Positions 5,301-50,300 of a stretch of 64,000 bases of DNA are shown piece after piece. How positions within the stretch are numbered: the stretch's first letter is position 1; every line of letters begins with the position of its first letter. A program made the position numbers and the translations under genes. Source of the DNA: Sipunculus nudus. Taxonomy: Eukaryota > Annelida > Sipuncula > Golfingiida > Sipunculidae. A model generated the notes under the pieces. It had not been told where the DNA came from. It made no database searches and saw only the letters and a list, made by a program, of their open reading frames with translations. Location of the stretch: assembly GCA_026874595.1 (NCBI GenBank), contig CM049315.1:59456889-59520888 (forward strand), written 5' to 3'.

Positions 5301-8300
5301 GGTGTATCTGAGGTGTACCTGTCATCTTAAAGTGTGTTTCAGGATGTTAAAACACAGGATTTTCAGTATAAAGACCTGCCGATTATTTTAGGTAAGAATT
5401 ACTGGTTAGAGAAGTGGGAATTAGTAACAAATAACAAATGCACTTTTTGTAAAACTAATGTAGAAAATACAGTGCATCTATTTTGGGAATGTGAATTGAT
5501 TAAAGAATTTTGGTCAGAAATAGAAATTGGGTAATATAATAAGTTGAAAGTAGACAATTTTCACCTTGGTAAAACAGAAGTTTTTTAGGAGTGCTAAGGG
5601 AAGAAATGTGGAAAAATTATATATTTATTTTCAGTAAAAGGTATATTTATAGATACAGGTGTAATGATATTGGTGCAACAACAACAGGATTTGAACAATA
5701 TTTAAAACATTATATGAACATTGAATTGAGTTTGCAGGATTGGTCCTGCTGCTCAGTTATGCATTCATATATTGCCCTAAAATATTGTATGCATATTGAT
5801 CATAGAAAATTTTATCCTTGCTGTTGCAGCTGTATATTGACATCAGGAAGGAAGAACAGTTCAGTGAGAAGATGGTTGCTCTGTTCAGCAGCATCAAAAA
5901 TAAGCTGCAGCAGGAGGTAAGGGGCTGGACCAGTATCAGGCAGTCGTACAAAAACACACACTCTGAGCAGCCATTGTAAATATGGACAAAACTGTAGAGG
6001 TTGGAGTTTCTAAGCTGAATGAAGTTTTTGCTCACTGGTTATCTTGTTTCACACGTATCAGTGCTATATATTGTTTGTGTTCTTCTAACAAGCTTCTGTT
6101 ATTTAAGGTCAAATATTTTTTACAAAAATTTGAACCAAGGATGCTATAAAAATAATCTTTAATTATTTACATATTTTCTTTCTTTCATGTTCATCTGGAA
6201 GAAGAAGAATGGATGAACTCATGTGAAATCTGATAACAGTAACCCATTGTACATTTGTATAACCTGCAACTTACCAGACTGAACATTTTACAAAAATAAA
6301 CCAAATTCTGGACTATAAGCCCTGATGTAGTATCACCTGGTTGAAAGCTGAACAAGTTATTTCTCTTGATAAAATTTGAAAAAAAAAGTCTGCTTTAACC
6401 TTTGATAGTTTAGCCATTCAATATCATTTTTGTTTTTCAGCTTCATGGCTCATGGTTCACAGGTAATTTCTCAGTTTATTTCCTGTGTCACATTTCAGGA
6501 GGCCGTCCACCCAGAGGTGTTTCTTAGTTACTGCTGGACAAATTCAAAAGATGCCATTAACAGAGGCACACGCAAGATAGAGGGCGCCACAGATGGTGCC
6601 GACCCACGTGAGCTTAAAGCTAAGTTGGAGGAGAAGGGTCACAAGGTCTGGCTGGATATCGAACAAACAGGGAAGGTACGTAGGTCAGGATCAGTACATT
6701 ATGTTTTACATGCAGCTGTGTCTATGATTTTAGTGTTTTATGATTTCTGAAAAATAATGGCTACATGTAAAAGAAACCTGTATTAAACAAGAAGCAGTCA
6801 AAGACCAAAAGCCACTGCCAGGATATTCATCAAAACAGCTGTTACATTTTACAGCCCTGTCACCGGTCACCTCCAGAAAAAAGGCACCTCTACCAGTAAT
6901 ACCAATGAAGAGCTGTTATAAAGAAATAGCAGTATGTCACAATGTTTTTTTTAAATGAATCCTGTAAATTAAAATAAAACAGTGGAGATTCAGATAACCT
7001 TCAGTTAACTTACTATAATATAAAATTTGATCAATATCTATTTTAAAATGTTTGCATTAAGTTGCTTACAGAAAAACTTAATAAAGAAAAAATGTTTATG
7101 GAATACCTCTAGGGAGTATGTGGTAACAAAATATGGAACATTTTTTTCTGACATTTTTACAAAAAATAAGCAAGCATTTGCATACTCTCAGAAAAAAAAC
7201 ACAAACTGTGCTTCAGCTCTTGTAAAATTATTTTATATAAGCAATACAAAATGAAGTAGATTTCCTTAGATGCCTTTTGATTTTTGTTAGCACAAATCAC
7301 AACATGACTGAAGAAATAATGCTCATTGATAAAAAACAGATTTATCAGATGGTCTTTGATGTATTTTTTATATGATTCTTGTGATTCAAAAAATAGAATT
7401 GCAATGCTGTAAGGCAGGTAAGTTTTAGGTTTGGCCAAACTGAATTTTAGTTCATGGCAAGCCATTGCCTGCCTTGTACACCTTATTGAATGACTGATTA
7501 ATTATTAGAGCATCCATACAGGGATACTGAAACAATATTGCACTTTCTTTTGAATAAATATAACAGTAAAATAAGGATGGGTGGCAGAGGTCTTGTTCCT
7601 CATATTGTCACAGCCATGCCTATTACATCTACATCTCCATATCAAATCTTTCTCATGAAGTAACAGTCACAGACTCTTTTGATTAAGCTCTAATTAAATT
7701 GTTATTTAAAAAAAAATAAACTTTCCAGTGTATGGATTTTCATATAGACCAAAGGGAACCACATTTGTAGATTGTCACATTTGTATATTGTTGCCTCTGC
7801 CAAGAGGGTATGTGTTCTTCCTGTTCGTTTATGTGTAGGTGTGTGTGTGTGTGTTCACAACGTAACTCATGCAATCATGAACAGAATCTCATGAAATTTT
7901 AAGAACATTTTGGGAATGGGCTAATGAAGAAGCAATTAGATTTTGGTGTGGATCCAGAACATGCTCCAGATTCAGTAATGTCATCAAGGAATATTCACAA
8001 ATGTACAGTCACTTATGCAAAATGCACCTGGGAAATGGGCTGAATAAGTGAATGCAAATGTGGTTTTAGGAGCATCCCACATGGTGAGGCCTGGTTGCAT
8101 ATTTGTAGTATTTGTGATAATACAATTATCTCTTTTACTGTGCTTCCAGCAAGGGTTGTTCCAGGACATTTTGGTGGGAATCAGACATGCGTCCGTTGTA
8201 GTTGTCTGCCTGTCAGCAGAGGTAAGGATACACATATTTATAATTCCTTTTACCCTGTACTAACTACCAGTCACCATCTGCAAGTAGTCAGGGACGCTTA

Positions 8301-10820
8301 GCTACTCTTTTATTATCTCTTTTTAACAAATTATGTATAGGAATTTATGTAGACTAGGAAATTAAACTTATGCTACTCAAAGTCGGATTTAAGGCTTACA
8401 GATGTGATGTTTTATTTTATGTCTAGTCAGAAGGTGTTGTTCTATGATATTCTTCTGTAATATCTGTCTACCTGAGACAGTTTTTGGTCTGTCTAAGATA
8501 TGTCTGTCTAAGATGCCTACTTACTGGTACCTTAGATCTGTCTATGAAATTTTTCTGTTAATGACCTTTTGAGGATATCTATCTAAGATGTATGGGTGTG
8601 TTTCAGTGATATCGGAGACAATGATATGATTCTACCTGTCTGCTAGTCCTTACATGTTTGACAACAAGTGCCAGTATATATAGAGAGCATATATATAAGT
8701 ACTGATGCTTGTTATTGCCATATTTTCAGTATGCCAAGTCTAAGAACTGCATGATGGAGCTGAGGTACACCGCCTGCTGGACAAACAAGACAATAGTGTG
8801 TGCTCTGGTCGGCAGCGACAAGTTTGGGGTGCTCCATGACAGTGAGGTAATTTATTATGTCTGTGTTTATCTTCATGCCAGTGTCAGTACTGGTTGTCTT
8901 TCCCAGTGATATGCAAGGTATAGGTGAGAAAGAATCTGAAACATAGTTTTACTTCTCATACTTGATCCAATATTCCTTTAATCCACAGCTTTCTGTTTGT
9001 CAATTACCCTTGTACTCCCCGTGAATGGTATGCATTTTACACAGCGCTTTACCTATAGGCCTACTACCTATATCGTAAGCGCTGTTTGTTATGACTTCGT
9101 ATCCTGAATCTCTACACCAGAGGGGAGCACTGTATTTTAGTCCATTCAGATGACACCCTGTGCTGGAAGACAAAAAGGTTTACCAGCCAAGCAAGGAATA
9201 CACAGAGCTAATTTTGTTCATTTCATTTTGAGTGACAGCTCTTTGCCCCAGTAACCATTTGAACAGGCCACAGGCTCAGAGAGAATGGCCCCACACATAG
9301 TTTCTGGGCGGAGCCTGATGCCTGTCAAGTGTTTGTTGGCTGCCAGACACATCAGCAGTTTTTTCAGCAGACAGGCCACCTGGTGTTTAAGTGCATCATA
9401 AACGGTCAAGGCAGGCAGCAGGAAAATCAGTAGCTTCTTTAGAAGCGCAAGATTTCCACTGCCTCGGGAGCGTAAGTGAATGGGGAGTTGAGATGTTTGA
9501 CAGGTTGCATGGGATGTTGGACTGTTGACAGGTTGGAATGTTGAACTGTTGCAGGTTTGATGTTGGACTGTGACTGGTTGGGATGCTGGACTATGACAGG
9601 TTGCAAGGGATGTTGGACTGTGACAGGATTGGATGTTGGATTGTTACAAGTTGGGATGGTTCACTGTTACAGGTTGGGATGGTGAAGTATTACAGGTTGG
9701 GATGGTGGACTATTATAGGTTGGTATGTTCGACTGTTACAGGTTGGGTATTGGACTATGACAGGTTGGGGTGTTGGACTGTTACAGGTTGGGATGTTGGA
9801 CTCTCACACATTGGTATTTTGGACTGTTACAGGTTGGGATGTTAGACTCTCACAAATTGGTATTTTGGACTGTTACAGGTTGGGATGTTGGACTCTCACA
9901 CATGGGTCTGCCTAAACACCCAAAACACTGGTGTTTTGGGTATGTGTGACGAAACACCACGAAACACCCTTTTAAATATGAATTTAAAGCAAACACTGGC
10001 ATCGGTGAATAAATTATCATCTGTTACATATGTCAATGCGGAATGGTGACACTATTCTGTAAAATGAAAAAAGCAATAGTGTTTTGTACATCTGACAAGT
10101 GCTCTGCTTGTTTGCGACTTGCGCCACTAGGGGGCAGCTTCATAGCTGGCATAAATGGCTGCCGCTGGTGAACCAACCACGGCACGAAACACTCGTTTTT
10201 ATCTCTATTTAATAAATTTATGAAACAATATTGCATATATATATTCATCAGATGATTATTTATCAAATGGTGTTACGTTTTGGGTTCATGTTTGAAGTTA
10301 AGTTGGTGTCACGTGGTGTTTCGTCACAGATACCCAAAACACGGATGTTTTGGGTGTTTAGGGGGACCGTCACACATTGGTATTTTGGACTGTTACAGGT
10401 TGGGATGTTGCTGGCCAGAAACAAGGCTCCAGTCATCAAGCTGCAGGGACAGTATGATGACACTGCAGTACAGGAGCTGATCAGCGCTGTAAAAGAGAGG
10501 ATCCCTAAAGACAAGCCAGCACAGGAAAAGAAGGAACAAGTACCACAGTCACTACAAATCAACCAGATGTCCTACGCTGTAAGTGTCTCACAGTCACACA
10601 CACACATACATACATACACAGTCACTACAAATCAACCAGATATCCTACACTGTAAGTGTTTCACAGTCACACACACACATACATACATACAGTCACTACA
10701 AATCAACCAGATGTCCTACGCTGTAAATGTCTCACAGTCACACACACACACACACACACACACATACATACACAGTCACTACAAATCAACCAGATGTCCC
10801 ACGCTGTAAGTGTCCCACAG

Positions 10821-10864
<44 letters not shown>

Positions 10865-10927
10865 ACACACACACACACACAGTCACTACAGATCAACCAG
10901 ATGTCCTATGCTGTAAGTGTCCCTCAG

Positions 10928-10990
<63 letters not shown>

Positions 10991-11093
10991 CACTACAAAT
11001 CAACCAGATGTCCTACGCTATGTGTCCCACAGTCACACATACATACAGTCACTACAGATCAACCAAATGTCCTATACTATAAGTGTCTAACAG

Positions 11094-11138
<45 letters not shown>

Positions 11139-11182
11139 CACTACAGATCAACCAAATGTCCTATACTATAAGTGTCTAACAG

Positions 11183-11221
<39 letters not shown>

Positions 11222-11262
11222 TCAACCAAATGTCCTATACTATAAGTGTCTAACAGTGTCTG

Positions 11263-11311
<49 letters not shown>

Positions 11312-11355
11312 CACTACAGATCAACCAGATGTCCTATGCTGTAAGTGTCCCTCAG

Positions 11356-11418
<63 letters not shown>

Positions 11419-14400
11419 CACTACAAATCAACCAGATGTCCTACGCTATGTGTCCCACAGTCACACATACATACAGTCACTACAGATCAACCAAATGTCC
11501 TATACTATAAGTGTCTAACAGTCACACACACACATACATACACAGTAACTACAGATCAACCAAATGTCCTACGCTATAAGTGTCTCACAGTCACACACAC
11601 ACACACACAATACATACACAGTCACTACAGATCAACGAAATGTCCTATGCTGTGAGTGTCTCACAGTCACACACATACACACATACATACACGGTCACTA
11701 CAGATCAACCCGATGTCCTGTGCTGTAAGTCTCTCACAGTCACACACACACACACACACACACACATACATACACAGTCACTACAGATCAACCTAATGTC
11801 CTATGCTGTAAGTGTCTCACAGTCACACACACATACATACACAGTCACTACAGATCAACGTGATGTCCTGTGCTGTGAGTGTCTCACAGTCACACACACA
11901 CACATACATACACGGTCACTACAGATCAACCAAATGTCCTACGTTATAAGTGTCTCACAGTCACACACACACACACACATACATACACAGTCACTACAGA
12001 TCAACGTGATGTCCTGTGCTGTGAGTGTCTCACAGTCACACACACACACACATACATACACAGTCACTACAAATCAACCTGATGTCCTATGCTGTAAGTG
12101 TCTAACAGTCACACACTCACATACATACACAGTCACTACAGATCAACCTGATGTCCTATGCTGTAAGTGTCTCACAGTCACACACACACACATACATACA
12201 CGGTCACTACAGATCAACCTGATGTCCTATGCTGTAAGTGTCTCACAGTCACACACACATACATACACAGTCACAACAGATCAACCAAATGTCCTATTCT
12301 GTGAGTGTCTCACAGTCACACACACACACACACATACCTACACAGTCACTACAGATTAACCTGATGTCCTATGCTGTAAGTGTCCCACAGTCACACACAC
12401 ACACACAGACATACACAGTCACTACAGATCAACCTGATGTCCTATGCTGTAAGTGTCTCACAGTCACGCATACATACATACAGAGTCACTACAGATCAAC
12501 CTGATGTCCTATGCTGTAAGTGTCCCACAGTCACACATACACACTTACACACACTGTCACTACAGATCAACCTGATGTCCTATGCTGTTATTGTCTCACA
12601 GTCACACACACACACATACACACACAGTCACTACAGATCAACCAGATGTCCTACGCTGTAAGTGTCTCACAGTCACACACACACATACATACATACACAG
12701 TCACTACAAATCAACCAGATATCCTACACTGTAAGTGTCCCACAGTCACACACACACACATACATACACAGTCACTACAGATCAACCTGATGTCCTATGC
12801 TGTAAGTGTCTAACAGTCACACACACATACATACACAGTCACTACAGATCAACCTGATGTCCTATGCTGTAAGTGTCTCACAGTCACACACACATACATA
12901 CACAGTCACTACAGATCAACCTGATGTCCTATGCTGTAAGTGTCCCACAGTCACACACACACACATACACAGTCACAACAGATCAACCAAATGTCCTATT
13001 CTGTGAGTGTCTCACAGTCACACACACACACACACATACCTACACAGTCACTACAGATTAACCTGATGTCCTATGCTGTAAGTGTCCCACAGTCACACAC
13101 ACACACACACAGACATACACAGTCACTACAGATCAACCTGATGTCCTATGCTGTAAGTGTCTCACAGTCACGCATACATACATACAGAGTCACTACAGAT
13201 CAACCTGATGTCCTATGCTGTAAGTGTCTAACAGTCACACACTCACATACATACACAGTCACTACAGATCAACCTGATGTCCTATGCTGTAAGTGTCTCA
13301 CAGTCACACACACACACATACACAGTCACAACAGATCAACCAAATGTCCTATTCTGTGAGTGTCTCACAGTCACACACACACACACACATACCTACACAG
13401 TCACTACAGATTAACCTGATGTCCTATGCTGTAAGTGTCCCACAGTCACACACACACACACACAGACATACACAGTCACTACAGATCAACCTGATGTCCT
13501 ATGCTGTAAGTGTCTCACAGTCACGCATACAAACATACAGAGTCACTACAGATCAACCTGATGTCCTATGCTGTAAGTGTCTAACAGTCACACACTCACA
13601 TACATACACAGTCACTACAGATCAACCTGATGTCCTATGCTGTAAGTGTCTCACAGTCACACACACATACATACACAGTCACAACAGATCAACCAAATGT
13701 CCTATTCTGTGAGTGTCTCACAGTCACACACACACACACATACCTACACAGTCACTACAGATTAACCTGATGTCCTATGCTGTAAGTGTCCCACAGTCAC
13801 ACACACACACACAGACATACACATTCACTACAGATCAACCTGATGTCCTATGCTGTAAGTGTCTCACAGTCACGCATACATACATACAGAGTCACTACAG
13901 ATCAACCTGATGTCCTATGCTGTAAGTGTCCCACAGTCACACATACACACTTACACACACTGTCACTACAGATCAACCTGATGTCCTATGCTGTTATTGT
14001 CTCACAGTCACACACACACACATACACACACAGTCACTACAGATCAACCAGATGTCCTACGCTGTAAGTGTCTCACAGTCACACACACACATACATACAT
14101 ACACAGTCACTACAAATCAACCAGATGTCCTACTCCATAAGTGTCCCACAGTCACACACACACACACACATACATACACAGTCACTATAGATCAACCTGA
14201 TGTCCTATGCTGTAAGTGTCCCACAGTTACACACACATACATACACAGTCACTACAGATCAACCAAATGTCCTACGTTATAAGTGTCTCACAGTCACACA
14301 CACACACACACACATGTACATACACAGTCACTACAGATCAACCTGATGTCCTATGCTATAAGTGTCGCACAGTCTCACACACACACATAGTGTTGAACAT

Positions 14401-17400
14401 CACATACATAGTCAGACACGCATACATACATATTCATAACTGCAGATCAACCAGATGTTCTATGTTGTAGGTATTATACATCACATGCCTACTCAGAGAC
14501 ATATAACATGTCTCTCATACATCGAGACAGACATACAACACACTAATACCTACCACACAATTATTGCAGATTTACTAGAAGTCCTTCACTGTAAGTCTGT
14601 CATATAAGATTGAATTTAATTTTAATTTTATATTGTTATGTTTATATTGTTATGTTATGTGGGGGGGCCGGGGGCGGGGGGGGGGGGGGGGCGTATGGTG
14701 AGTATGCTTCTGTCTTTCTGCCTATCTGGGATACATTGTTACTGTTTGCGCAATGACTTCAAAACAAATTGACATGCAGCCAACATACTCAAAACATTAA
14801 TGCACAAAATGGAGAGCTAGGTAAAGCTGGAATAAGAATGACCTTGAAGCATTCCTGTAAGGTCATAGAAGGGGTTAAGACGTAGGCTTAGTTTGAATAT
14901 GGATGACCTCGACTCCTTTTCAGCTCAGCTGACTGATATTCATCTGAGCTATGGTGATCACTCTTTGTCCATCGGCCGTCCGGCCAATTAGTTGGCCATT
15001 AACAGGGCACAAATCATAGCTTCTGGACCTAGAAACTTCTAAATGAACACCCAAGGAGGTCTATAAAAATTCTAAGAAACCTCAAATTAGGTCACTCCAA
15101 CCTATATCCTGCGGGCTATGGGGCTCATAAACGGTTTTGTTAGACATAGAAACTTCCAACTACATCCTGGGAGGCTCTAGCCAATTCTCTTAGGAAACCT
15201 GCAATTAGGTCATATTGACATATATTTTGCAAACTGTTTGAAAACATGATTTTGAGCACCTAGTGAGTCGACAGGGCACAAATTGTATCCATTTGGCCTA
15301 GAATCATCTAACATGCTATTTAGGGAGGTCCTGGGTAAATCTTTGCGCAGACCTGAAAATAGGTTATGGTGATCTATTTTCTGTAAGATACGTGAAGGAA
15401 CATAATTTGAACACCTTACAGGACAGATTTGCATGATTGGTTGCAGTTGGACCAGGAAACTTCTAATTTGATTAAGGTCCAGGGAGGTTCTGTAAATATT
15501 TCTTGGAAACCTGAAAAAATGTCACTGTGACCTATAATCTACGAGCAATGTGAAAGAACATGATTTTAGCATTCTATTAGTCAGATGGGTAAAATCTTCT
15601 CGGAAAGACTTAGAAAGACCTATTTCTAAGGACTTTTGGCAAAATTCATGATTTTGTGCACTCTGGAAGTCATTTTACCCATTGTTCAAGGTTCCTTGAA
15701 AATTGCTGAGCATCATGGCGCATGGGCTACTTGTTCAAGTTCACAGATGCAGTTTTGCTAAAATGATATGACAGCAATAACTTAAAACGTTACCAAACAT
15801 ACACAATTGATGCATCTTATGAAGACTAGGTTAAGTTAAAAAATGTATGACCTTGACCTATTTTTCAAGGTCACAGACGCGTCCTTGCTAAAATAATGTT
15901 ACCACAATAATTCGAAAAGAATGTGAGGCACATTCACCAGACAAACCATTGATGTATCTTATGAAGGGCCAGATTTGATTGACCGATCATGCATCTCATT
16001 AAGAGCTAGGTCAAATTTGAACGTGGATAACCATGCCATAGTTTTCAGGGTCACACATGCAGTCAGTCCTGTTTGTTACTGATATTACACTCATCAGTTC
16101 TGTTAATTGTTTCAAGACTTTCTCCCTGATATTCAAAACCTCTCCTGAAGCTGCTTCTATGATAGGTGAAGGAAAACACAGGATTGTTCCAGAAATCAAT
16201 TTGCTTGGTTTATGGTGTCTAGTCTAGCTGTCTGCTCATGAATGTTCAAACGTTGTGTAAAATAGGATATTTATATACAGTTGAACATCCAAGTTTTGTG
16301 TAATTCATGCCAGACTCTACATTGCAGGAAGAGTGTGAGCTGGCACAGAGAAAGTTCATCAGGTACATTGCTGGTCTCCAAGAAGTGGAAACAAGTTCAC
16401 CATATCCAAGAATATTTGTTTTAGATATGCTGGAGAATGAATCTGAAGAAGGTATACAGTCTTTTAAGTTATAATATTTAAAGAATAAAATTTAGTGTTT
16501 GTACTCAACTCATTGGAATGATAATATACACTGAAATTTGCATTCCTAAAGGCTGCAGAGGGATACAGGTTAAGAATTTATGGGTAAAAGCCTTTTAAAA
16601 TTAAACCAAAAGGTTTCACAATCCTTATTTGCTTTTGATTCTGTTTATTGATATAGAGAGATTGGAAATTTTTTTCCTACATGTTGAGCATAATTAGTTT
16701 GAGGTGTTTGGAATAGTATTCATTAATACTCATATATATGTGATTCATTCATAAAAAAGTTTGAAGCAGGGAAACACTCAGCCAGCTGATTGTCAAGCAG
16801 ATTGCACTTTACATGTAAATGTCATTTGCAGGATCTTATATTATTTTGCTAGGAATAATAGTTTATTTTAACTATATATGCATTTTCCATTGGTGTGTGA
16901 TTATTTTTGCGTCTGAGTGTAAGAGGTAAGATCTTCCATTTACAATATACTGTTATGTAGGCAGTTCATTAAATGGTCAGAAGTTTGACCAGGGATCTCT
17001 TTTAAGGTGATCATTGTATCCGCCAAAACAGAATTTTGCAGATACTGTGTTTTCAGCTGGACTCTCTCGTAACTACTGGATGGAATTTTATGAAACTCAG
17101 ATTATGATCAGGGTACATGTGAACTGCTGCACCTTCATTTTGGGTTGACCTCTGTTTTCACACATAAACCCACAGGTCTTGGGACTTGTTTGACCAATCA
17201 GGCTGAAATTTGGATGGGTGTAGCTCTTTAAAAGCTTTTTATCATACACAAAACTGGTGGCACCACCTGCAAACATTTTTGCAAAGTGTCCATCTGTTCA
17301 TCTCCTTGGATTAAAATCACTCATATCTCTGCAATGGTTGGACTTTTTTTGCAAGTTTATACATCTTGGATAGGTATCACGTTTATATGACAGGCGGCTC

Positions 17401-20400
17401 CACTGACATTCATGTTTGTGCTGCAGATATACATGCTAATATCTCAGGACTGGTTTGATGTATCAGCCTGAAATTTTGCATGTGTATAGATCTCACATAG
17501 CTCTTTATCATGCCTTGGGTTAAAATCACTCACATCTCGGCAGTGGTTTGACTTAGCCTCCTGAAATTTTGCATGTGTATACATCTTAAATAGCTTTCTC
17601 AGGTAGTTCCACCTACAATCATGTTAATGTGGCAGACATCCACACTCACTCTGTTTCCTCTTACATCTCAAGCCATCCCTAACTTAACATATACCACTTT
17701 GATTTCAGCAGATACACTTAGTCGCTTGTCGACTACCCGTAATCTAGTTTTGATTATCCTGTGTGATGTTCAGATCATTACATTGTATTTTACAGATAAT
17801 GAAGGAAGCTCTGACTGGATGAGTCAACTTGTCATAAGAGTTCTTTGTGAGTGGGAGAAGGTCAGTACAGTAAAATGTTGGCAGTAGGAGAACTACCTAG
17901 GTACATGGAAGATAAAAATAGATAGACGTGATGAACACACACAAATATTACATGTCTGAGTGGCGTCATATGCTGCAGGTACTCAGTTTTATGGTTAGGT
18001 TTGTTGACATTTGATTGGTTTGTATATTGCCCTGTGTCTTGACGTAAACCTTAATATAACTGATATGGACTTGCTTCTTATTGAGGATTACATCATGTGC
18101 TACATTTTATGAATTAATTTCCTTCAGATCAATAAGTAGATGTTAATTTCAGTCATAGAGTGTGGACCCTACTTCAATATTATTGCTGTTGACAATATTC
18201 AAAATCACTAGATATTCTGAAAGTACCGTTAGGTATTTAGCTGATAACTGTACACAGCAGTAGTGGTCATGAGGGGACACCTGTTGGATATAGCTAAAGT
18301 GTCCCTACATTGCAGATTAGAGGTAGGGACAGATGCAGGTAGGGATTAGGGATAATGATTACTGTACAGAGATATATGCCTGTGTTTTTAGCTCAATGAT
18401 ATATGAAAAAAAAAATGTTTATATGGACATTTAATACAAAAAAGCAGATCCTTTGACATTATGATTAAAAAAGCCTTTAAAGAGCCTGTTCATATATGAA
18501 TACAATATCTAATTAAAGATGTATATATTCTCATAAGAATATTTACTAAAAACATTTTAAAATGGCAGGTACTGCTGTATTTCTAATTATACCTTGTTAT
18601 CTATTTAGAGAAGTCATTGTTTTTATGGAAACCTCCCTGTAATGTAGACAGCCATTCAGAAATTGACTCTTGTGACAGGGATGGCATGAGTGTGGGAAGG
18701 AGCACTTGGCACTGCAGCTGGACCATGAACAGATTGACAAGAAACTGCAGCACTGGGCACCCTATCTTACCTGTATACATAAACTCCTCAAGCACAGCCC
18801 CATCTCTCTACAGATGGATGGTACAGAGGCAGGCAGTCAGTATATCACCTACATCACACAAGTGAGTTATATGTTTGATTAGTTTGACTTTGGGTAATTT
18901 ATAAGTATTGTTAATATTTCTTATTATAATTATAACTAATGGTTAATAATACACACATGATTAGTATAATTAATATGGCACAGGTGAAATATACAGACAA
19001 ACTGATGAATATGTAAATATTTAAGTGAATATATATATATATACATATATATTGTGTAGCTGTAATGGAAATAAAACAGGTCAGTATATAGGTGTAATTA
19101 ATGTAACACAGGTCAGTGTATAGTTGTAATTAATATAACATAGGTGAATGTGTTAGTAAAATTTATATAAAAAAGGAGAATGCCTACATTTAATTGAAAT
19201 AACACAGATGAATATATAGGGTTATTATTATAACATCAGTTAGTTTATAGGTGTAATTAATATAATACTGGTAAATCAATGGTGTAATTAGTATGACATA
19301 GGTGAATGTTTAGTTGTAATTAATATCTGATAAATTATGGGTGTAATAAATATAACTCATTTACATGTATAGATGTAATTAAGATAACACTGGTAAATGT
19401 ATAGGTCGAATTAATGACACCCTGGTAAATCATAGGTGGAATTAATATAACACAGGGTGAATGTATAGGTATAATTAATGTAACTCATTTACATTATAGG
19501 TGTCTAATTAATATAACACTGGTAAATATATAGGTGTAAATAATGTATCACAGGTGAAATATTTGGTAATATCACATGAAAATGTCAGCATAATAAGCGT
19601 AATGCAGGTGAATATATTAGCATGATTATTAGAAAACAGGTGAATATATAACTTCATTATATGTAACCAAGTGAATATGTAACTATAATTACTATAAAAA
19701 TGATGATTATAAATGCAATAATATTGATACATTTTATTGAACTAGGATGAAAGAACACATGATTACAAATAAGCTCGTGCAGCTATTTACAGCCTCACAG
19801 TCAGTGCATATATTCACTTGATGCAAGAATTCACAACATCACAGAAAAGCTCATACTCAGCTTGTCTATTTGCAATGTACTTTGTAGCTGTGTGATGAGG
19901 AGAGCGGTCAACAGGTTAACGAGGCTTACCTGGATCTCCACAGGTACACACGTGAGATGGACACTGACCTGAACTATGGCAGTCTCAGCAGGTCAGTGGT
20001 CAGTTCTGTACCATAAAACAACCATAACCCATCATTGTACTCCTTTCTCTGTCTGTAAACAGTTCATCAGCATTCCCTGAATGTATCATTATTGTGTCCA
20101 AAGAAGTCGGGGAATACTATGGTTTCAACAGGGTCGCACTATTAGCCCCACTGCCACCACAACAATCCTTCCATGTCAGACAACTTAAAAAATCTTTCCT
20201 AGATATTTTAAGTCTTCCCCCCCCCCCCCACACACATATATATATACACATGCACACATACACAAACCCGATTTTCCAGGATCTTCAAGGTCAGATCAGA
20301 TGAATTATATTTTGTCTCTGGGATTTCTTGTGAAAGATAACTTTTGAAATTGGATTTGATTATAGACCATGATATTTGGGAACAAATTTTTTAATTTGTA

Positions 20401-23400
20401 CATGGAACTTAAAGGTAATTCCATTCTAGTTCAACATTTAAGTGCATAGATATAGGTAATATGACTTGAGTCTATTTAAAATAGCTTCATTATCATTAAT
20501 ATTAGATGAAACCTTAAACAGGTCCACTGAGTGAGCTATATGAACATTAACATGACCTTGTTACTTTTAAGTGATGAAGCAAATTGCAAAACTTTAATAC
20601 AATATACATGGTGTTTGTAGGTGTCACTTAAATACAATAGATGGTGTTTGTAGGTGTGACTTTAATACAGTAGACAGTGTTTTTAGGTCTTACTTTAATA
20701 TAATAAACGGTGTTTGTAGATGTCACTTGCCAACAGGACAGATTCGTTGGCTGTGTCCTGCCCACCAAAAGGAAAGCCACGTCAGGGTGCTTGGAATGGA
20801 AGATGAGGCAGAACTCAACTCTCGTGTACTAGTGACAAAAACAGACTATCTGATGCTTGCTGCACTTGACAAATACTCCCACCTGCAGGCCAACACAGGA
20901 ATTATGGAGAAGGCTGCCAGCACAAAGCCTGAGAATACAGGTCAGATTGCAAACAGAAAGATTTTTAATGTTACAGGAACAAGGGCTACTGTCCAAGAGG
21001 ATATATACACTGTGCACATACATAGACATGTAAAGAAATATTAATACAACTACAAAAAAAAAACTTTGCCAGATTTGATTGAATTACAGGTGACATTCTC
21101 TTGCAGAATATTAGATATTAGATATTAGAAAATAATTTTTAGCTCAGCTGACTGAAAGTCATCTGAGCTATAGCGATCACTCTTTGTCCGTCGTCCGTCT
21201 GTCCGTCTGTCTGTCTGTCCGTCTGTCCGTCCGTTAACCAGGCACAAATCGTAACCACTGGACCTAGAACCTTGTAACTTGGGATTCTGAGAGGTCCATA
21301 AAAAATCTCCTTGGAAACCAGAAATTAGGTCTCTGTTACCCATATCCTTCGAGCTATGTGGCCCCAAAGTACCCCCCAGAAAAGTCAAAAATTTCATACA
21401 AAAACTTCAATATCTCATTAACTACATCACTGATGGTCATGATTTTTGGCATACATATTGATCATGAGATGTTCGATCAGTTCCTGCAGACTGGTGGCGC
21501 CACCTATACTGTTTGATTTTTTACGAATTTTTATCTCTATTTTTGAGACCTTTGAGGATGCTGTCATCTGTTAGCGTGGCACAAATCGTAACGACTGGAC
21601 CTAGAATCTTCATTTTCGACACACTGAGAGACCTATGAAAAGTCTCCACGGAAACCAGAAATTAGGTCTCTGTTACCCATATCCTTCGAGCTATGGGGCC
21701 CAAAATTACCCCCCAGTATAGTCAAAAATTTCATACAAAAACTTCAATATCTCATTAACTATATCACTGATGGTCATGATTTTCGACATACATATTGATC
21801 ATGAGATGTTCAATCAGTTCCTGCAGACTGGTGGCGCCACCTGTACTGTTTGATTTTTTACGAATTTTTTTCTCTATTTTTGAGACCTTTGAGGATGCTG
21901 TCATCTGTTAGCGTGGCACAAATCGTAACGACTGGACCTAGAATCTTCATTTTCGACACACTGAGAGACCTATGAAAAGTCTCCACGGAAACCAGAAATT
22001 AGGTCTCTGTTACCCATATCCTTCGAGCTATGGGGCCCAAAATTACCCCCCAGTATAGTCAAAAATTTCATACAAAAACTTCAATATCTCATTAACTACA
22101 TCACTGATGGTCATGATTTTCGACATACATATTGATCATGAGATGTTTCATCAGTTTGTGCAGACTGGTGGCGCCACCTGTATTTTTCAATGTTCACGAA
22201 TTGTTTTCTCCATTTTTGAGACCTTTAAGGATGTAGTTATCTGTCAACAGGGTACAAATCGTAACGACTGGACCTAGAATCTTCGTTCTTGACACACAGG
22301 GAGACCCATGATAAGTCTCCATGGAAACCTGAAATTTGGTCTCTGTTACCCATATCCTTTGAGCTATGGCACTCCAAAGTACAGCTCAGAATAATGGAAA
22401 ATTTGATACAAAAGCTAAAGTATCTGAACAACTAATGCAGAGATAACCATAATTGTTTGCATGGATATTGATCATGGAGTGTTTCATAAGTTTCTGCAGA
22501 CAGGTGGCACCACCTGTATTTGTTCGGTTTTTTTTACGAAATTTTTCTGTATTTTTGAGACCTTTAAAGATATGAACATCTGTTAACAGGGCACAAATCA
22601 TAAAAACTGGACCAAGAATCTTCATTCTTGACACACAGGGAGACCCATGAAAAGTCTCCATGGAAACTTGAAATTAGGTCTCTGTTACCCATATTCTTTA
22701 AGCTGTATGGGTCCAAAATACCCCCCCCCCCAGAATAATGGAAAATTTGATACAAAAACTGCAGTATTTCAATAACTACAACACTGATGGTCATGATTTT
22801 CGGCATACATATTGATCATGAGCTGTTCCATCAGTTTCTGCAGACTGGGTGTGCCACCTCTATTTTTTTTCAAATTTTTACGAATTTTTTTCTTTTTTTT
22901 GAGACCTTTAAAGATGTGGTTATCTGTCAACAGGGTACAAATCGCAACAACTGGACCTAGAATCTTCATTCTTGTCATGCAAGGAGGTCCATGAAAGGTG
23001 CCTGTGGAAACTTGAAATTAGGTCTCTGTTACCCATATCCTTCAAGCTATAGGACGTCGAAGTATCCCTCAGAATAATGGACAATTTGATACAAAAACTG
23101 AAGTATCTGAACAACTAATGCAGAGATCACCATGATTTTTTGCATGGATATTGACCATTAAGTGTTTTTATTAGTTTCTGCAGACTGGTGGAGCCACCTG
23201 TATTTTTGTATCAGCCAAAACGAAGTTTTGCGGATACTATGTTTTTGACCGAGTTCCTCCGCCGCGGCGGCGTTCATTTCCAGAGAGCTCCTCGGAGACT
23301 AATGGACCGATTTTTCCCAAACTTACACCTATTATCGGGTCACATGTGAACTGGTGCCTAACCAATTTGCATTGACCTCTGACCTTTCCTCTCTATCCAG

Positions 23401-44300: not shown

Positions 44301-47300
44301 ACATATGTTTCCCAGCAAAACCAGCACATGGTCTCATTTCATGTTTAACACCATGTTATGGCTCTGCTTGTTGGTAAACACAGTCTGTTTACCAAAACAA
44401 GGCTGCGTGACCGGAGGTCCAATTAAGAGGGGCAACACGCGGTGTTTCAGCCAGCAGGAACATGTATTACATTTTTTTGGGGTCAAGTCAGACAGAGCAT
44501 CTCCTGATTGACATGTTTTTTGGCTCAGCGATGCATACGGCCCCACACGCTGTGTTTATGTTTACACCTGTCATCACGCCTAGTCCATTGTTTTTAACAT
44601 TTGTTTACAGGAGAAAGCAAACGGCTTCAGGGGAATATTTTGGCAGGTACAGATTTATTTAAAGGGAAGAAGCTATTTTTCATGTTAGCTCAACATGCTT
44701 TATAGGTGATTGGGCCCCTTTAAAAGTATTAAAATGATACATATAATTTCTACTACTATTAAACAGTTGTGAAGTAAAACATATTTTGAGGAAATATGAT
44801 GTTACTGCTGCATCTGATCAAATATCTGTCTATGACTGATAATGCAACAGGTAGCCTGATATAGGCACACAAGATAGTAGTATAGTCAGACTTACTTTTT
44901 GAGCTTGTCAATGTTGAAGCCAATCAAGTCTGGTATAACTTGGAGTGGTCCTTCCTTCTTATCTTCAGCCTCCATCTATAAATAAAACGCATATACAGTC
45001 AATATCCAAAGATATCAGAGATAACTGCTACAGAAAAAAATATTATTCTGCCATTTAATGGCCTGTTATTGTTCACCGAATCAGTCAAGCTGACCATTAT
45101 AACACCATTACATATCTCTAATCTGTTCTACAGATCAATTCAAACAATTTACAATTTTTTTTTTCAAGTAAATTAAATTCCAGATATTTACCATTTCTCA
45201 CCATGTCTGGAGCAGGTATTTCAGATATTTACTATTTTCCCCATGTGCTATACTCACTATTAAAAGAAATTTACCAATTTATATATTTTAAGCAAACCAG
45301 TTCCAGAATTTACCGTTTTCTAAAATTCATGAAAATCCAAACATTTGCAATTTGTTCAAGTTCTCACGTCAGCATTTCCATATTTCTTGATTTTTGGGTG
45401 ATCATTATAAGACCACTGCCATTTTCTCATGTTTCAAGAACACTATTCAAGATCTTAAAACATATTCTCATGTTTTTAAGCATTACCATTTTCTGCATGT
45501 CACTCTTGTTTTCTTGCTTTTCATCCGTTTTGTCCTTCTGCTCCGCTGCTGCCTCATCTTTCTTGACCTCTGCATCCTTTTGGCTGATGATACCGGCAGA
45601 CACAAGTTTTGAGAATAAGTCGTTCACATCTATCTGTGGGTTAGGTTGTGAACTTTCTTGGGTTGAATGGGGTCCTTGGTCACCTGTCATCAAGTAAAGT
45701 GAAATGTGTATGTGACCAACATGAAGATGTAGTGGGTCAGATGGTCATTGGAACTATATAAATGCACAATTTTCAAGCAAGTAGAATGACACAATAAAGA
45801 GATACTGGTTTAAAACATAAATGCAATGCATTATAAACACACCCTTGATCAGTAACTGTAGCATATAAATTGGTATACATAATAACAAGTCTTATAAAGA
45901 GCAGTCTCCAATCCAAATGGATCACTCAAAGAGCTGTAATTGGCCAAATGTCTTCACAAAAATAAACCCTTTCAAGGCACTTCTGAACTGTTGAATGCTA
46001 GTGGAAGTTCTGGTAACGGACAAGAGTTTATTCCAAAGCTGCAGGGCTCAATCGAAAAAGTCCTGGTGCAAACAAATCATGTTTGGACTTGTGGTACTTA
46101 TAAAAATGTGCTGATGATGATCATAGAGAGCATGGAGCAGTGTGCATGAAAAGGAACTCTAAGAGGTATGATGTAGCCAGACCATACAGACATTTGAATT
46201 TGAGAAGTTTGCATACTGTGGAACTGGGAGCCTATGTAGTGCTGAAGTGCGATGGATTCTCTCTGAAGACACATACCAATGCATGATTCATACTAGCAAG
46301 ATTTTTTGAATGACAAGTTTGCTTTTTATACTTCATAACTTCCTCATTACAAAAGTGATATAAATAAAGTATTTACCTGGCTTAAACCTGGTTTGTCTCA
46401 TTAAACTGGTGATACAATAAAGTATTTACCTGGTGTGAGTCCTGGTTATATTAATTAACAGATGATACAAAAGCTAAGTAATTGCCAATCTCTAGTCTTG
46501 TTTGTCCAAGTGTAGAAACACAAAGGTAGATACCTTGTTTGGATCCTGAGTCTCCATTTGGCATTATCTGGCCGCTGTTATCTTGGTTGGCTATTCCTGG
46601 AGGCATCTGGATGGGTCCTGGTGGCCTGTCTGGCCCAGGCTGCATGTTGTTGACAGGACCACCTTGCATGTGAGGACTACCCCGGCCTTGCATTCTCTCT
46701 GCCGGGTTCATATTTCCCTGAGGATTCATGCTTTGCTGGCCTGACCCCCCTGGCATGTTGGGACCAGGCATGCCCAGACCACCCATGTTTTGAACACCAG
46801 GCATGTTTGGCCTCATGTTTAGTCCACTCGGTGTAAGCAATGGCTGTCTCAGTGCAATACTCAGTGCTGCTCCAAGGTTCACCAGGTCTGCCATACCACC
46901 CGGGAATCCTGGAGGGATACCAAGCTGCTGTCCAAGTCCTGCTGCTACTTGGGCTGCCATTAATTGTTGCTGCAGGACACCTGGTTGTCCAGCAAAGGGA
47001 CCCATAGGTCCAGGCCCTCTCATATCAGGCCCTGATGGTCCTCTGTCAAACTGTGGGCCCTGTCCTGGTTGTGGACCCATACCTGGTCTTGGACCCATAT
47101 CCCCTTGCTGCCTGTTATCAGGCCTGGGTCCTGGTCCAAAACCAGGTCTATCTGGTCTTGGTCCCCTGGCTTGATTCAACTCAGGTCTGTTCGTGCCACG
47201 TGGGCCTGGCCCAGGTCTGTCAGGCATAGGTCCTGGTCCATCTGATCTGTCAGGCATGGGTCCTGGACCTGGTCTGTCAGGCATGGGTCCTGGTCCCAGT

Positions 47301-50300
47301 CTGTCAGGCATAGGTCCTGGACCTGGTCTGTCAGGCATGGTTTCTGGTCCTGACCTTTCTAGCAATGGCCTTGGTCCTCTTGACTGGACAGGCTCACGTA
47401 ACAAAGGTGGTGGCATTGGTGGCCTGGGTACTTCAGAAGTGCTTGCCCGTGGTCCCCGGATTCCCTCTAAATTTAGACCTGAAGAAGTTAATGAGATAAA
47501 GAATGTGAAAGGAAGGGTATCTGGAAAATGTCAATAATATGAGCTTTAATGCAAAACTTGAGAATATTCATGAATCAATGCTAATACTCATAACACTAGC
47601 TAAAAGATAAAAACAGTAATGCTGTATAATAGTGTATCCTTCTTGTCATGTACATAGATTCAGAAGTTTGAACCTACAGACAGTTCCACTTCCACTTCAC
47701 ATGACCACATCTGGCAGCACAGGAGTGAATGGGAGGTACTGTCAGTTACAGTAGTCAACTGGTCACAATGCTCAGTAGAAGTTCACGAGTTGTATAAATA
47801 TATATATTCAATAGTTCTACATAGGGATGACATTAACAGTTGGAGCTAAAATTCAAGCCCAATCATTCATAAAAGGATATTACTGCTATTATCCTAATTT
47901 GATCAATGTAAGGGTAGCACTGTTGTTAACCTGTCCCTATCATTTATTTGAGGATAATTCTGGTGTTAGCCTGTCCACATCATTTAATGTGAGGATAATT
48001 CTGGTGTTCGCCTGTCCCAATCATTTTATGTGAGGATAATTCTGATGTTAGCCTGACCCTATCATTAAATGTGAGGATAATTCTGGTGCTGGCCTGTCCC
48101 TATCATTTTGTGTGAGGATAGTTCTGATGTTAGCCTGACCCTATCATTTAATGTGAGGATAATTCTGGTGCTGGCCTCTCCCAATCATTTAATGTGAGCA
48201 TAATTCTGGTGTTGGCCTGTACCCATTATTGAATGCAAGGACAATTCTGATCAGTGGTGTTTGGCTTACCCTGTTAGTTCTACAAAGGGATAATGTCTAT
48301 CTATCATCTATCTCAAAAAGTTATAAAAGAAGTTATATAGGAATGATATATCAAGCTAGAAATTATTAACCTGTCCCAATAATTTATATATAGGGATTAA
48401 ATTACTGCTGGGACCAATCAATCCTGGTCTAACACTTTTTAAATTAATTTAAAATTCAAAGGAACTTACTAAGTAGGGGCATGATCTTTTTAGATCCAGT
48501 TGACCCTGGCTGGTTAGGTCTTGGTCCAGGTCCACCATGTCTTGGACCGCTGGGCTCCCTCATGTCCTGGTCCCTGTTCTTCCAAAAGTTACGACGGCCT
48601 TCTCGCAGGTCTTCATCACGTGGCCTGTGATTCTCATGTGCAGCGCCACCTGGTGATATTGGTGGCAGGATCTTCACATCAGGTGCAGGGCCATCTAATC
48701 GAATCCTGTGACGCTTGTAACCTAACCGTATTCTTTTTTCCTGCCCATCAAACTTGAGTTCATACCATTTACCATCAATAATAACTTCATGGCCTGGGCC
48801 ACCAAATGCTATAGTGTGTGCCCGAACTCCAAACCTTGCTCTTTGAGGTGCATTCATTGGCACTAACCAGGGTCTGTCATCAATGTATATTTTCTTTGGT
48901 GGTCCATCAAATCTGATGCCATGTTCAACACCATTTATAACAACCACAGGATACTTGCCATTCAGCTTTAGATCACACAGGTTGCCATCTATCAAAATCT
49001 GTTTTGTTGGAGGTTCAAACTGTACATCATGCAACTGGCTTCCAAGTTTCACTCTCCTCTTCTCTCCACCAAATGGACATACAGGTCGGCCGTCAACAAA
49101 CACCTGGTTATGCTTACTGTCAATTCGAATTTTAATTGTCTCTTCACCAAGCCTGATATTTTCAGGTGGAGCATCAATCTGTACTTCATGCAGGTGACTG
49201 TCAATCCATATCTGTGTTGGAGGACCATGGAAAAAGATACGATGTGAGAAGCCAAGCAATGTGATTTCTCGGATTGGTTCACCTATCTTATAGTATGGTA
49301 CATCATCAATCAATATTTCTCCAGTCTGGCCATCAGCCCTCACTAGGTATTGTTTCTTGCCAATAGGGATTTTACGTGGGGGTCGATTGAACATAAGTTC
49401 ATATGAACGTTTATCTATCACGACCTCGTGGGTGGGATCTCGATGCTTCATCTGACCTTGAAGTATGTCCTCTGGTAGCATCCATCTCGGGTCATTCTGA
49501 GGGAGGTATTTTTCTGTCCCATCCTCTTCAATTATCATAGGTGGGATGTTGTTCATTCTTAGTGGCTTGTTATCCCAATTAGGATGTCTTCTCTCAGCTG
49601 TTGGGCTTTGAAATGCTGCATAGGGACCCTCAGTGTCATTCAGCATGAACCGGTCAGGACGACCTGGCCTATCATCATGCATCCTCATTTTGACTTGCTG
49701 AAGCTGATACAGTTTTTCAAGCTGTTTGACTAATTCTCTGTGCTGTTCTGATGAGAGTTTACCTGAGCGAAGCTGCAAGTCAGCCTGTTTCAGCACTTCA
49801 TTTGATTTCTGCATCAAAAGAGGGGTTGAGAAGTTTTGCTCTTCTTGGCTCTGTTGTGACATAAAAGGTGCCCGTTCCCTCAAGGGATGAGCTCGTCTAA
49901 GAGGGTCATTCATAGCAAGGTTTCTTATCGGTGGTGATCTGAGATCAACATCTCCGTGCTGATTTGTAGCACCTGGTGGGACCTCCAGCTGAGGGGTAGA
50001 TGGGGTAGAGAAATTATCTGGGTGATCAGCTTTAAACTTGGCCCACCTTGCATGACCAGGGCTTTTCAATGGGGTGCTGAAACATTCATCCATTGTTTCA
50101 GGAGGATCACTGTCTGCCCTGTTGGGTAGTTTTGGTATTGTTGGTATCTTGCGATAATCCATGTCTTCTTTTCCAAACAAATCCCTGAAACATGGAGGCA
50201 ACAATACCATTAAGTTATTATCTATCCCAGTTTTGTTTAACTCTGAGATGTACTGCTACATATGAAGCATTTATGTTTGTCATAAAATCACTGCATTTAC

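Follow-up and report, generated by a model that had tools for sequence, protein, structure and literature searches.

Does an exon end that is followed by about fifty copies of itself mean that a gene has gained fifty tiny exons, or has one exon edge been multiplied inside an intron? We analyzed this question in a stretch of 64,000 nucleotides (nt) of DNA from the peanut worm Sipunculus nudus (the window), where exon 10399-10578 of a gene with a TIR domain is followed downstream by a long tandem array of copies of its own end and donor site. An earlier note on the same DNA had offered two explanations for this array: that its units are used as cassette exons, with the CA tracts and hnRNP L as regulators, or that it is a passive expansion seeded at the end of the exon. 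We consider it highly probable that the array is a minisatellite spanning the exon-intron boundary on the donor side and has no protein-coding role, in other words a “mirage” of the type named in amphioxus, and the look of fifty tiny exons is best read as arising from one duplicated exon edge.

Anatomy of the array

The array consists of 54 unit-like tandem copies between positions 10549 and 14599, spaced by 59-124 nt, and overlapping rows of Tandem Repeats Finder (TRF) with nested periods cover the region from 10544 to about 14389. It starts inside the exon at 10544 and runs on unbroken, so that the repeat adjoins its parent exon in tandem. A search of the genome (1.43 Gb in 153 contigs, with the window on contig C10) using a 35-base unit pattern and allowing up to three mismatches gave 51 matches, all in forward orientation and all within the array, and a reversed pattern used as control gave none; repeat counts from this search are lower bounds, very common words having been skipped. 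About 50 repeats of exon end and donor, as claimed in the earlier note, are thus confirmed, and a dispersed element is ruled out because the pattern is found at this single locus and nowhere else in the genome search.

The copied piece had been described as 30 nt of exon plus the donor plus a CA-rich spacer. All three parts are indeed repeated (Table 1), with an altered make-up in some copies, but the exon part is 35 nt: in a copy-by-copy profile of 52 anchored copies the match to the exon is high over 35 nt and then falls abruptly to about zero. The five nucleotides beyond the 30 first noted are the CACAG at 10544-10548, which had been read as a splice acceptor but is the exon's own sequence, namely its P-Q codons.

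The exon end and its gene

The exons of the gene were placed by eye on the plus strand. When they are joined, the product has one Pfam TIR_2 match (E = 5e-14, residues 123-199), upstream of exon 10399-10578. This exon lies just past the match and would encode the end of the TIR region and a linker. Translation and the counterparts in the paralogues support the exon as placed, in phase 0 at both ends. The exon layout is common to paralogue loci on contigs C3, C4, and C8 for several exons, and the counterparts of exon 10399-10578 at these loci (165, 177, and 186 nt, compared with 180 nt here) are flanked by AG and GT and are likewise in phase 0. The next exon of the paralogues opens after AG with E-L-x-E-x-x-Q-R-K, and the corresponding sequence here is EECELAQRK. 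Because the counterpart exon and the start of the next exon match in three paralogues, the exon very likely does end at position 10578, and the repeated unit appears to span exon and adjoining intron at a junction supported by the reading frame and the three paralogues. At the counterpart exon ends no TRF array was found within 460 nt on the intron side in any of the three paralogues, and exon end plus donor showed no good recurrence within 4 kb downstream in any of them (best 24-25 of 52).

Further downstream, the frame of exon 20737-20940 contains a stop when it is joined after exon 19888-19991, and a pseudogene was considered for this reason. Read in another frame, 20737-20940 has a weak WLCPxHQK match in two of the three paralogues (E 0.005 and 0.07), so that the placed joint, and not the gene, is probably wrong; the pseudogene was rejected.

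Splice signals and substitutions in the units

Intact splice signals had been noted for the units, which holds for the majority of them but is not universal: the donor GT is retained in 43 of the 54 units and lost in 11, the longer GTRAG is kept in 39, and the AG of CACAG in 45. The claim that no unit contains an in-frame stop did not survive a full count, since units 13 (TAA) and 50 (TAG) and the edge units 53 and 54 each have one. The sequence in front of CACAG does not resemble the acceptors of the gene. Measured from 25 to 5 nt upstream of the junction, the T fraction is 0.11 (0-0.19) in units 2-52 versus 0.48 (0.33-0.57) at the gene's 12 acceptors, and the two ranges lie apart. The gap from one donor to the next CACAG is 29-94 nt, with a median of 43, while the 11 introns of the gene measure 508-5749 nt.

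To quantify substitution, changes were counted on a tree of 32 distinct cores from 51 of the 54 units (units 9, 53, and 54 dropped). The number of changes per site was 0.80, 0.80, and 0.90 for codon positions 1, 2, and 3, respectively, 0.85 for the spacer, 1.33 for the donor hexamer, and 2.00 for the CACAG acceptor, without a significant contrast for the share of codon position 3 (p = 0.83) or for donor versus spacer (p = 0.33). An even spread of substitutions had been set beforehand as the sequence half of the outcome that speaks against cassette exons. Codon positions and spacer changed at similar rates, and none of the classes tested showed a significant excess. When the exon frame is read onward past 10578, a stop follows at 10807, where unit 4 has its GTAAGT. 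The units are spread over phases 0, 1, and 2, and the continued exon frame contains 28 stops across the array. For RNA structure the result was negative, one 353-nt block being less stable than all 100 of its shuffles (z = +3.5).

Growth and turnover of the array

Five units together form a higher-order repeat (Table 1). Its blocks starting at 12973 and 13326 are identical at 201 of 201 positions compared, and ungapped comparison of other block pairs gave identities of 0.98 (12557/13963), 0.78 (12271/12973), and 0.56 (13326/13679), the low values being at least partly due to differing spacer lengths. This block duplication points to recent growth. The final 30 nt of the exon recur without a single difference in units 3, 6, and 11, and the units at the outer edge are decayed; fresh, homogenised inner units together with a decayed outer edge is the usual pattern of minisatellite turnover.

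We propose that the array began with a tandem duplication of the boundary of exon 10399-10578, comprising 35 coding nt, the donor, and the start of the intron, beside CA-rich DNA. The 9-mer CACAGTCAC is found on both sides of the copied block, and microhomology between its copies at 10544 and 10589 is a possible and plausible seed of this first duplication. From there, unequal exchange or replication slippage would have extended the array into the intron, and constitutive splicing from 10578 to 16328 would remove it together with the intron. The gene would tolerate the array because all new copies lie downstream of the real donor.

Further boundary arrays in the TIR gene

The donor-side array is not the only one at an exon edge of this gene, as seen in Table 1. 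A 23-bp array repeats the acceptor and first nucleotides of the same exon 10399; an insertion resembling a miniature inverted-repeat transposable element (MITE) separates it from the exon, but its last unit adjoins the exon beyond the inserted element. The 35-bp array at the first listed exon copies little or no exon sequence, and many of its units contain TTGACAG/GTAG. When arrays were placed randomly within their own introns, the finding that three of the five short-unit arrays of the gene (donor-side array included) have an exon edge no more than 10 nt away had a P of about 9e-5, a value that applies to arrays chosen after seeing the data and in which the 23-bp array was scored at 504 nt from the edge owing to the insertion.

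Table 1 Positions of the TIR gene, the donor-side array, and other boundary arrays (window coordinates unless a locus is given; a slash marks the splice position).
Feature	Position	Strand	Basis or remarks
35-bp array, 15 copies	1668-2195 (TRF 1668-2196)	+	Last unit forms the acceptor of exon 2196-2366; array ends exactly there
TIR gene, first five exons	2196-2366, 5830-5916, 6499-6675, 8150-8221, 8730-8846	+	
23-bp array: acceptor plus initial 12 nt of exon 10399	9510-9894	+	TRF; 12 anchored copies
MITE-like insertion	9905-10368	.	92-nt inverted arms, 77% complementary; splits 23-bp array from exon
Seed exon, phase 0 to 0, starts VGMLL	10399-10578	+	Translation and paralogue counterparts
Copied exon piece, 35 nt including CACAG (codons, not acceptor)	10544-10578	+	Copy-by-copy match profile
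Donor-side array, units 2-52	10579-14387	+	Per unit: 35 exon-derived nt, GTAAGT-type donor, CACAGTCAC, (CA)n/(CATA)n
CACAGTCAC, 9-mer	10589-10597	+	Identical to exon 10544-10552; flanks copied block on other side
Higher-order repeat of five units, 353 nt	12973-13678	+	TRF period 353
Edge unit 53, decayed	14437-14475	+	Unit list; in-frame TAA
Edge unit 54, most decayed	14561-14599	+	10/30 differences from exon; in-frame TAG
Next exon, expected partner of donor 10578	16328-16451	+	Conserved in three paralogues
TIR gene, later exons	17796-17860, 18679-18861, about 19888-19991, about 20737-20940, last from 24757	+	
32-bp intronic array	19053-19560		AGGT on sense strand, as in 33-bp array
33-bp array	20591-20728	+	Ends 8 nt before exon 20737; acceptor of that exon not included
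38-bp array, CAG/GTAAGT donor	Joined L019+L018+L023, 5077-6373 (contig C4)		TRF
82-bp array, acceptor side of myosin exon (MKDERNYHIFYC)	L141:3033-3564 (contig C9)		

Boundary arrays elsewhere in the genome

On contig C4, upstream of the paralogue, an open stretch ends with GACTGGACAG followed by GTAAGT and is then continued by 38-bp copies of this end and donor. The array has 30 anchored donor copies (about 35 copies by TRF) that share about 14 nt of exon, and the exon beside it is a putative one, based on frame and splice sites only. On the acceptor side, the myosin exon on contig C9 has TTACAG plus about 26 nt of its coding sequence copied five times upstream, with changes, one copy carrying an in-frame TAG. 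The myosin locus L141 was picked for its odd long open frame and so falls outside the unselected sample, while the TIR loci L044-L046 were picked from TIR_2 matches without regard to repeats. That boundary-spanning minisatellites recur in a non-cephalochordate animal genome, at splice junctions of genes as unrelated as the TIR gene, the one with the C4 exon, and myosin, is a suggestion that we make tentatively and with somewhat more doubt than belief.

Two further sites were considered and not counted as mirages. One is a 43-bp array at L046:5266-5906 (contig C8) which contains AACAGGTCAGT and CTAACTGTAG and looks splice-like at both ends; no exon was recognised beside it. The other consists of four same-orientation matches to one stretch of the myosin head (about 109-153) at C2:44849337-44852248, which look like alternative exons, probably a mutually exclusive set in a muscle myosin gene.

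Some observations from the same searches are recorded here in their own right. Of 322 candidates, 150 were scored and all 150 were TIR_2 matches, many of them lying in long open frames; the genome appears to hold a large TIR expansion. Contigs C60-C138 include bacterial-type genes, several with equal scores, and a COX1 relative on C61 has 58% identity to a metagenome-assembled genome of Oligoflexia, the best of 80 matches listed from named genomes. A search for the GFP family, of which amphioxus has many genes, gave no match; this would argue against a cephalochordate, but the control genomes gave no match either. The molluscan haemocyanin domain was likewise not found, and the same caution applies. 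Among chains in the PDB, the muscle myosin was closest to that of squid, followed closely by human cardiac and scallop myosin. Within the window, positions 39200-64000 hold a minus-strand gene which we take to resemble PCF11, and tandem repeats lie within it at 47064-47099 and 47201-47352.

Weighing the explanations

If the units were alternative 30-nt cassette exons under the control of the CA tracts, they would add a variable run of 10-residue repeats after the TIR domain and ahead of the C-terminal region. Thirty nucleotides keep phase 0 to 0, and the linker varies in length and sequence among the paralogues, so that repeats might be tolerated there. We nevertheless find this explanation very improbable. 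The acceptors appear to be copied coding sequence without a pyrimidine tract, the gaps between units are below a workable intron length, and the absence of codon-position bias, together with the lost donors and the in-frame stops, does not look like coding constraint. Moreover, the 38-bp array on C4 repeats an exon end and donor in the same way and leaves no room for introns at all. The other explanation of the earlier note, passive growth of a repeat that started from the end of the exon, is the one favoured by the anatomy of the array, the missing acceptor signals, and the evenness of change.

About 40 good donors in one intron could also serve as landing sites or decoys for U1 small nuclear RNA (snRNA) and alter splicing, intron retention, or premature polyadenylation, with the copy number tuning the effect. 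The many retained GTRAG motifs fit such a role, and intron minisatellites of C. elegans have been linked to multiple splicing decisions. We regard it as improbable, however: changes in the donor hexamer are no rarer than in the spacer (difference not significant), the acceptor-side arrays in the TIR gene and in myosin are not expected to bind U1, and the published mirages, known from globin, Adh, TnC, and PGBD5 genes of amphioxus, reportedly leave splicing normal (PMC3087553, PMC3902484). Finally, array donors might be used as alternative ends of a lengthened exon, making the array a coding variable number tandem repeat. CA-rich DNA is poor in stops, and unit 3 shares the frame of unit 1 and precedes the first stop, but the stop at 10807, the scattered unit phases, and the many later stops in the frame speak against it; we give it next to no credence.

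Several points weigh against a donor-side mirage as we describe it, or against its generality. AG, GTRAG, and a stop-free frame occur together in 34 of the 54 units, which also speaks for cassettes, and occasional use of a unit may take place. Distinct synonymous states number 5 over 6.33 sites compared with 12 non-synonymous and stop states over 23.67 sites, a difference in the direction of constraint that is not significant (p = 0.38). The rate tests rest on 25 exon-part, 8 donor, and 11 spacer changes, so that weak constraint would escape them, and their tree was built on units that may exchange sequence. As to generality, none of the 12 best ion-channel loci had an array in contact with its matched stretch, a check that covered exon edges within the Pfam match, and no array (at least 3 copies, period at least 20) or self-similarity was found at 10 myosin exon hits in three stretches. 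Because these ion-channel and myosin samples are without arrays, we count them against a very high genome-wide rate.

Significance and comparison with known systems

The origin of the apparent acceptor, its pyrimidine content, the gap length, and the codon-position bias are tests that separate a mirage from microexons. What surprised us was to see similar arrays at further exon edges of the same genome, including that of a conserved myosin exon. If this recurrence is true, it would point either to a mutational process that acts at exon edges or to a strong filter that keeps tandem growth on the intron side only, and recurrent boundary minisatellites would be raw material for new exons and introns. 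Should they prove common outside amphioxus, they would bear on intron and exon gain, on annotation errors in genomes assembled from long reads, and on a mutational process that prefers exon edges.

The closest analogy to cassette exons is offered by the micro-exon genes of schistosomes, which have symmetrical tiny exons. Those microexons are expressed and have real introns between them, whereas the array in S. nudus has neither an acceptor signal nor room for introns.

No report of mirages outside amphioxus was found among the literature matches listed, a coverage that does not extend to most subscription journals. In earthworm metallothionein, intron minisatellites are known, and the available part of the report describes no exon-boundary copies (PMC12783039). 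The nearest relatives outside amphioxus are tandem repeats at human exon-intron boundaries, which can create introns (PMC2812944). They resemble the present array in minisatellite growth at exon edges and in cryptic splice sites, but differ in belonging to genes of primate segmental duplications and in that some of them alter transcripts (PMC2812944). In lancelet PGBD5, 60- and 108-bp tandem repeats that contain 5' as well as 3' splice sites are reported to leave splicing undisturbed, as we propose here, although these repeats are imperfect and low in copy number, for example a triplication of 3 x 108 bp (PMC3902484).

The amphioxus mirages of Adh3 and of the globins BflGb6 and BflGb9 are found at either exon boundary and vary between haplotypes (PMC3087553). 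Like the array described here, they consist of an exon edge and splice site repeated in tandem in the adjoining intron, with variable unit length, homogenised inner units, and divergent edge units (PMC3087553). The scale is different, with 6 and 3 units in two haplotypes of BflGb6 (PMC3087553) compared with about 50 copies here, and the CA microsatellite in each unit and the arrays on both sides of one exon set the S. nudus locus apart from what the report describes. Judged by its sequence, the array is best read as a boundary-spanning minisatellite of the kind already described in amphioxus.

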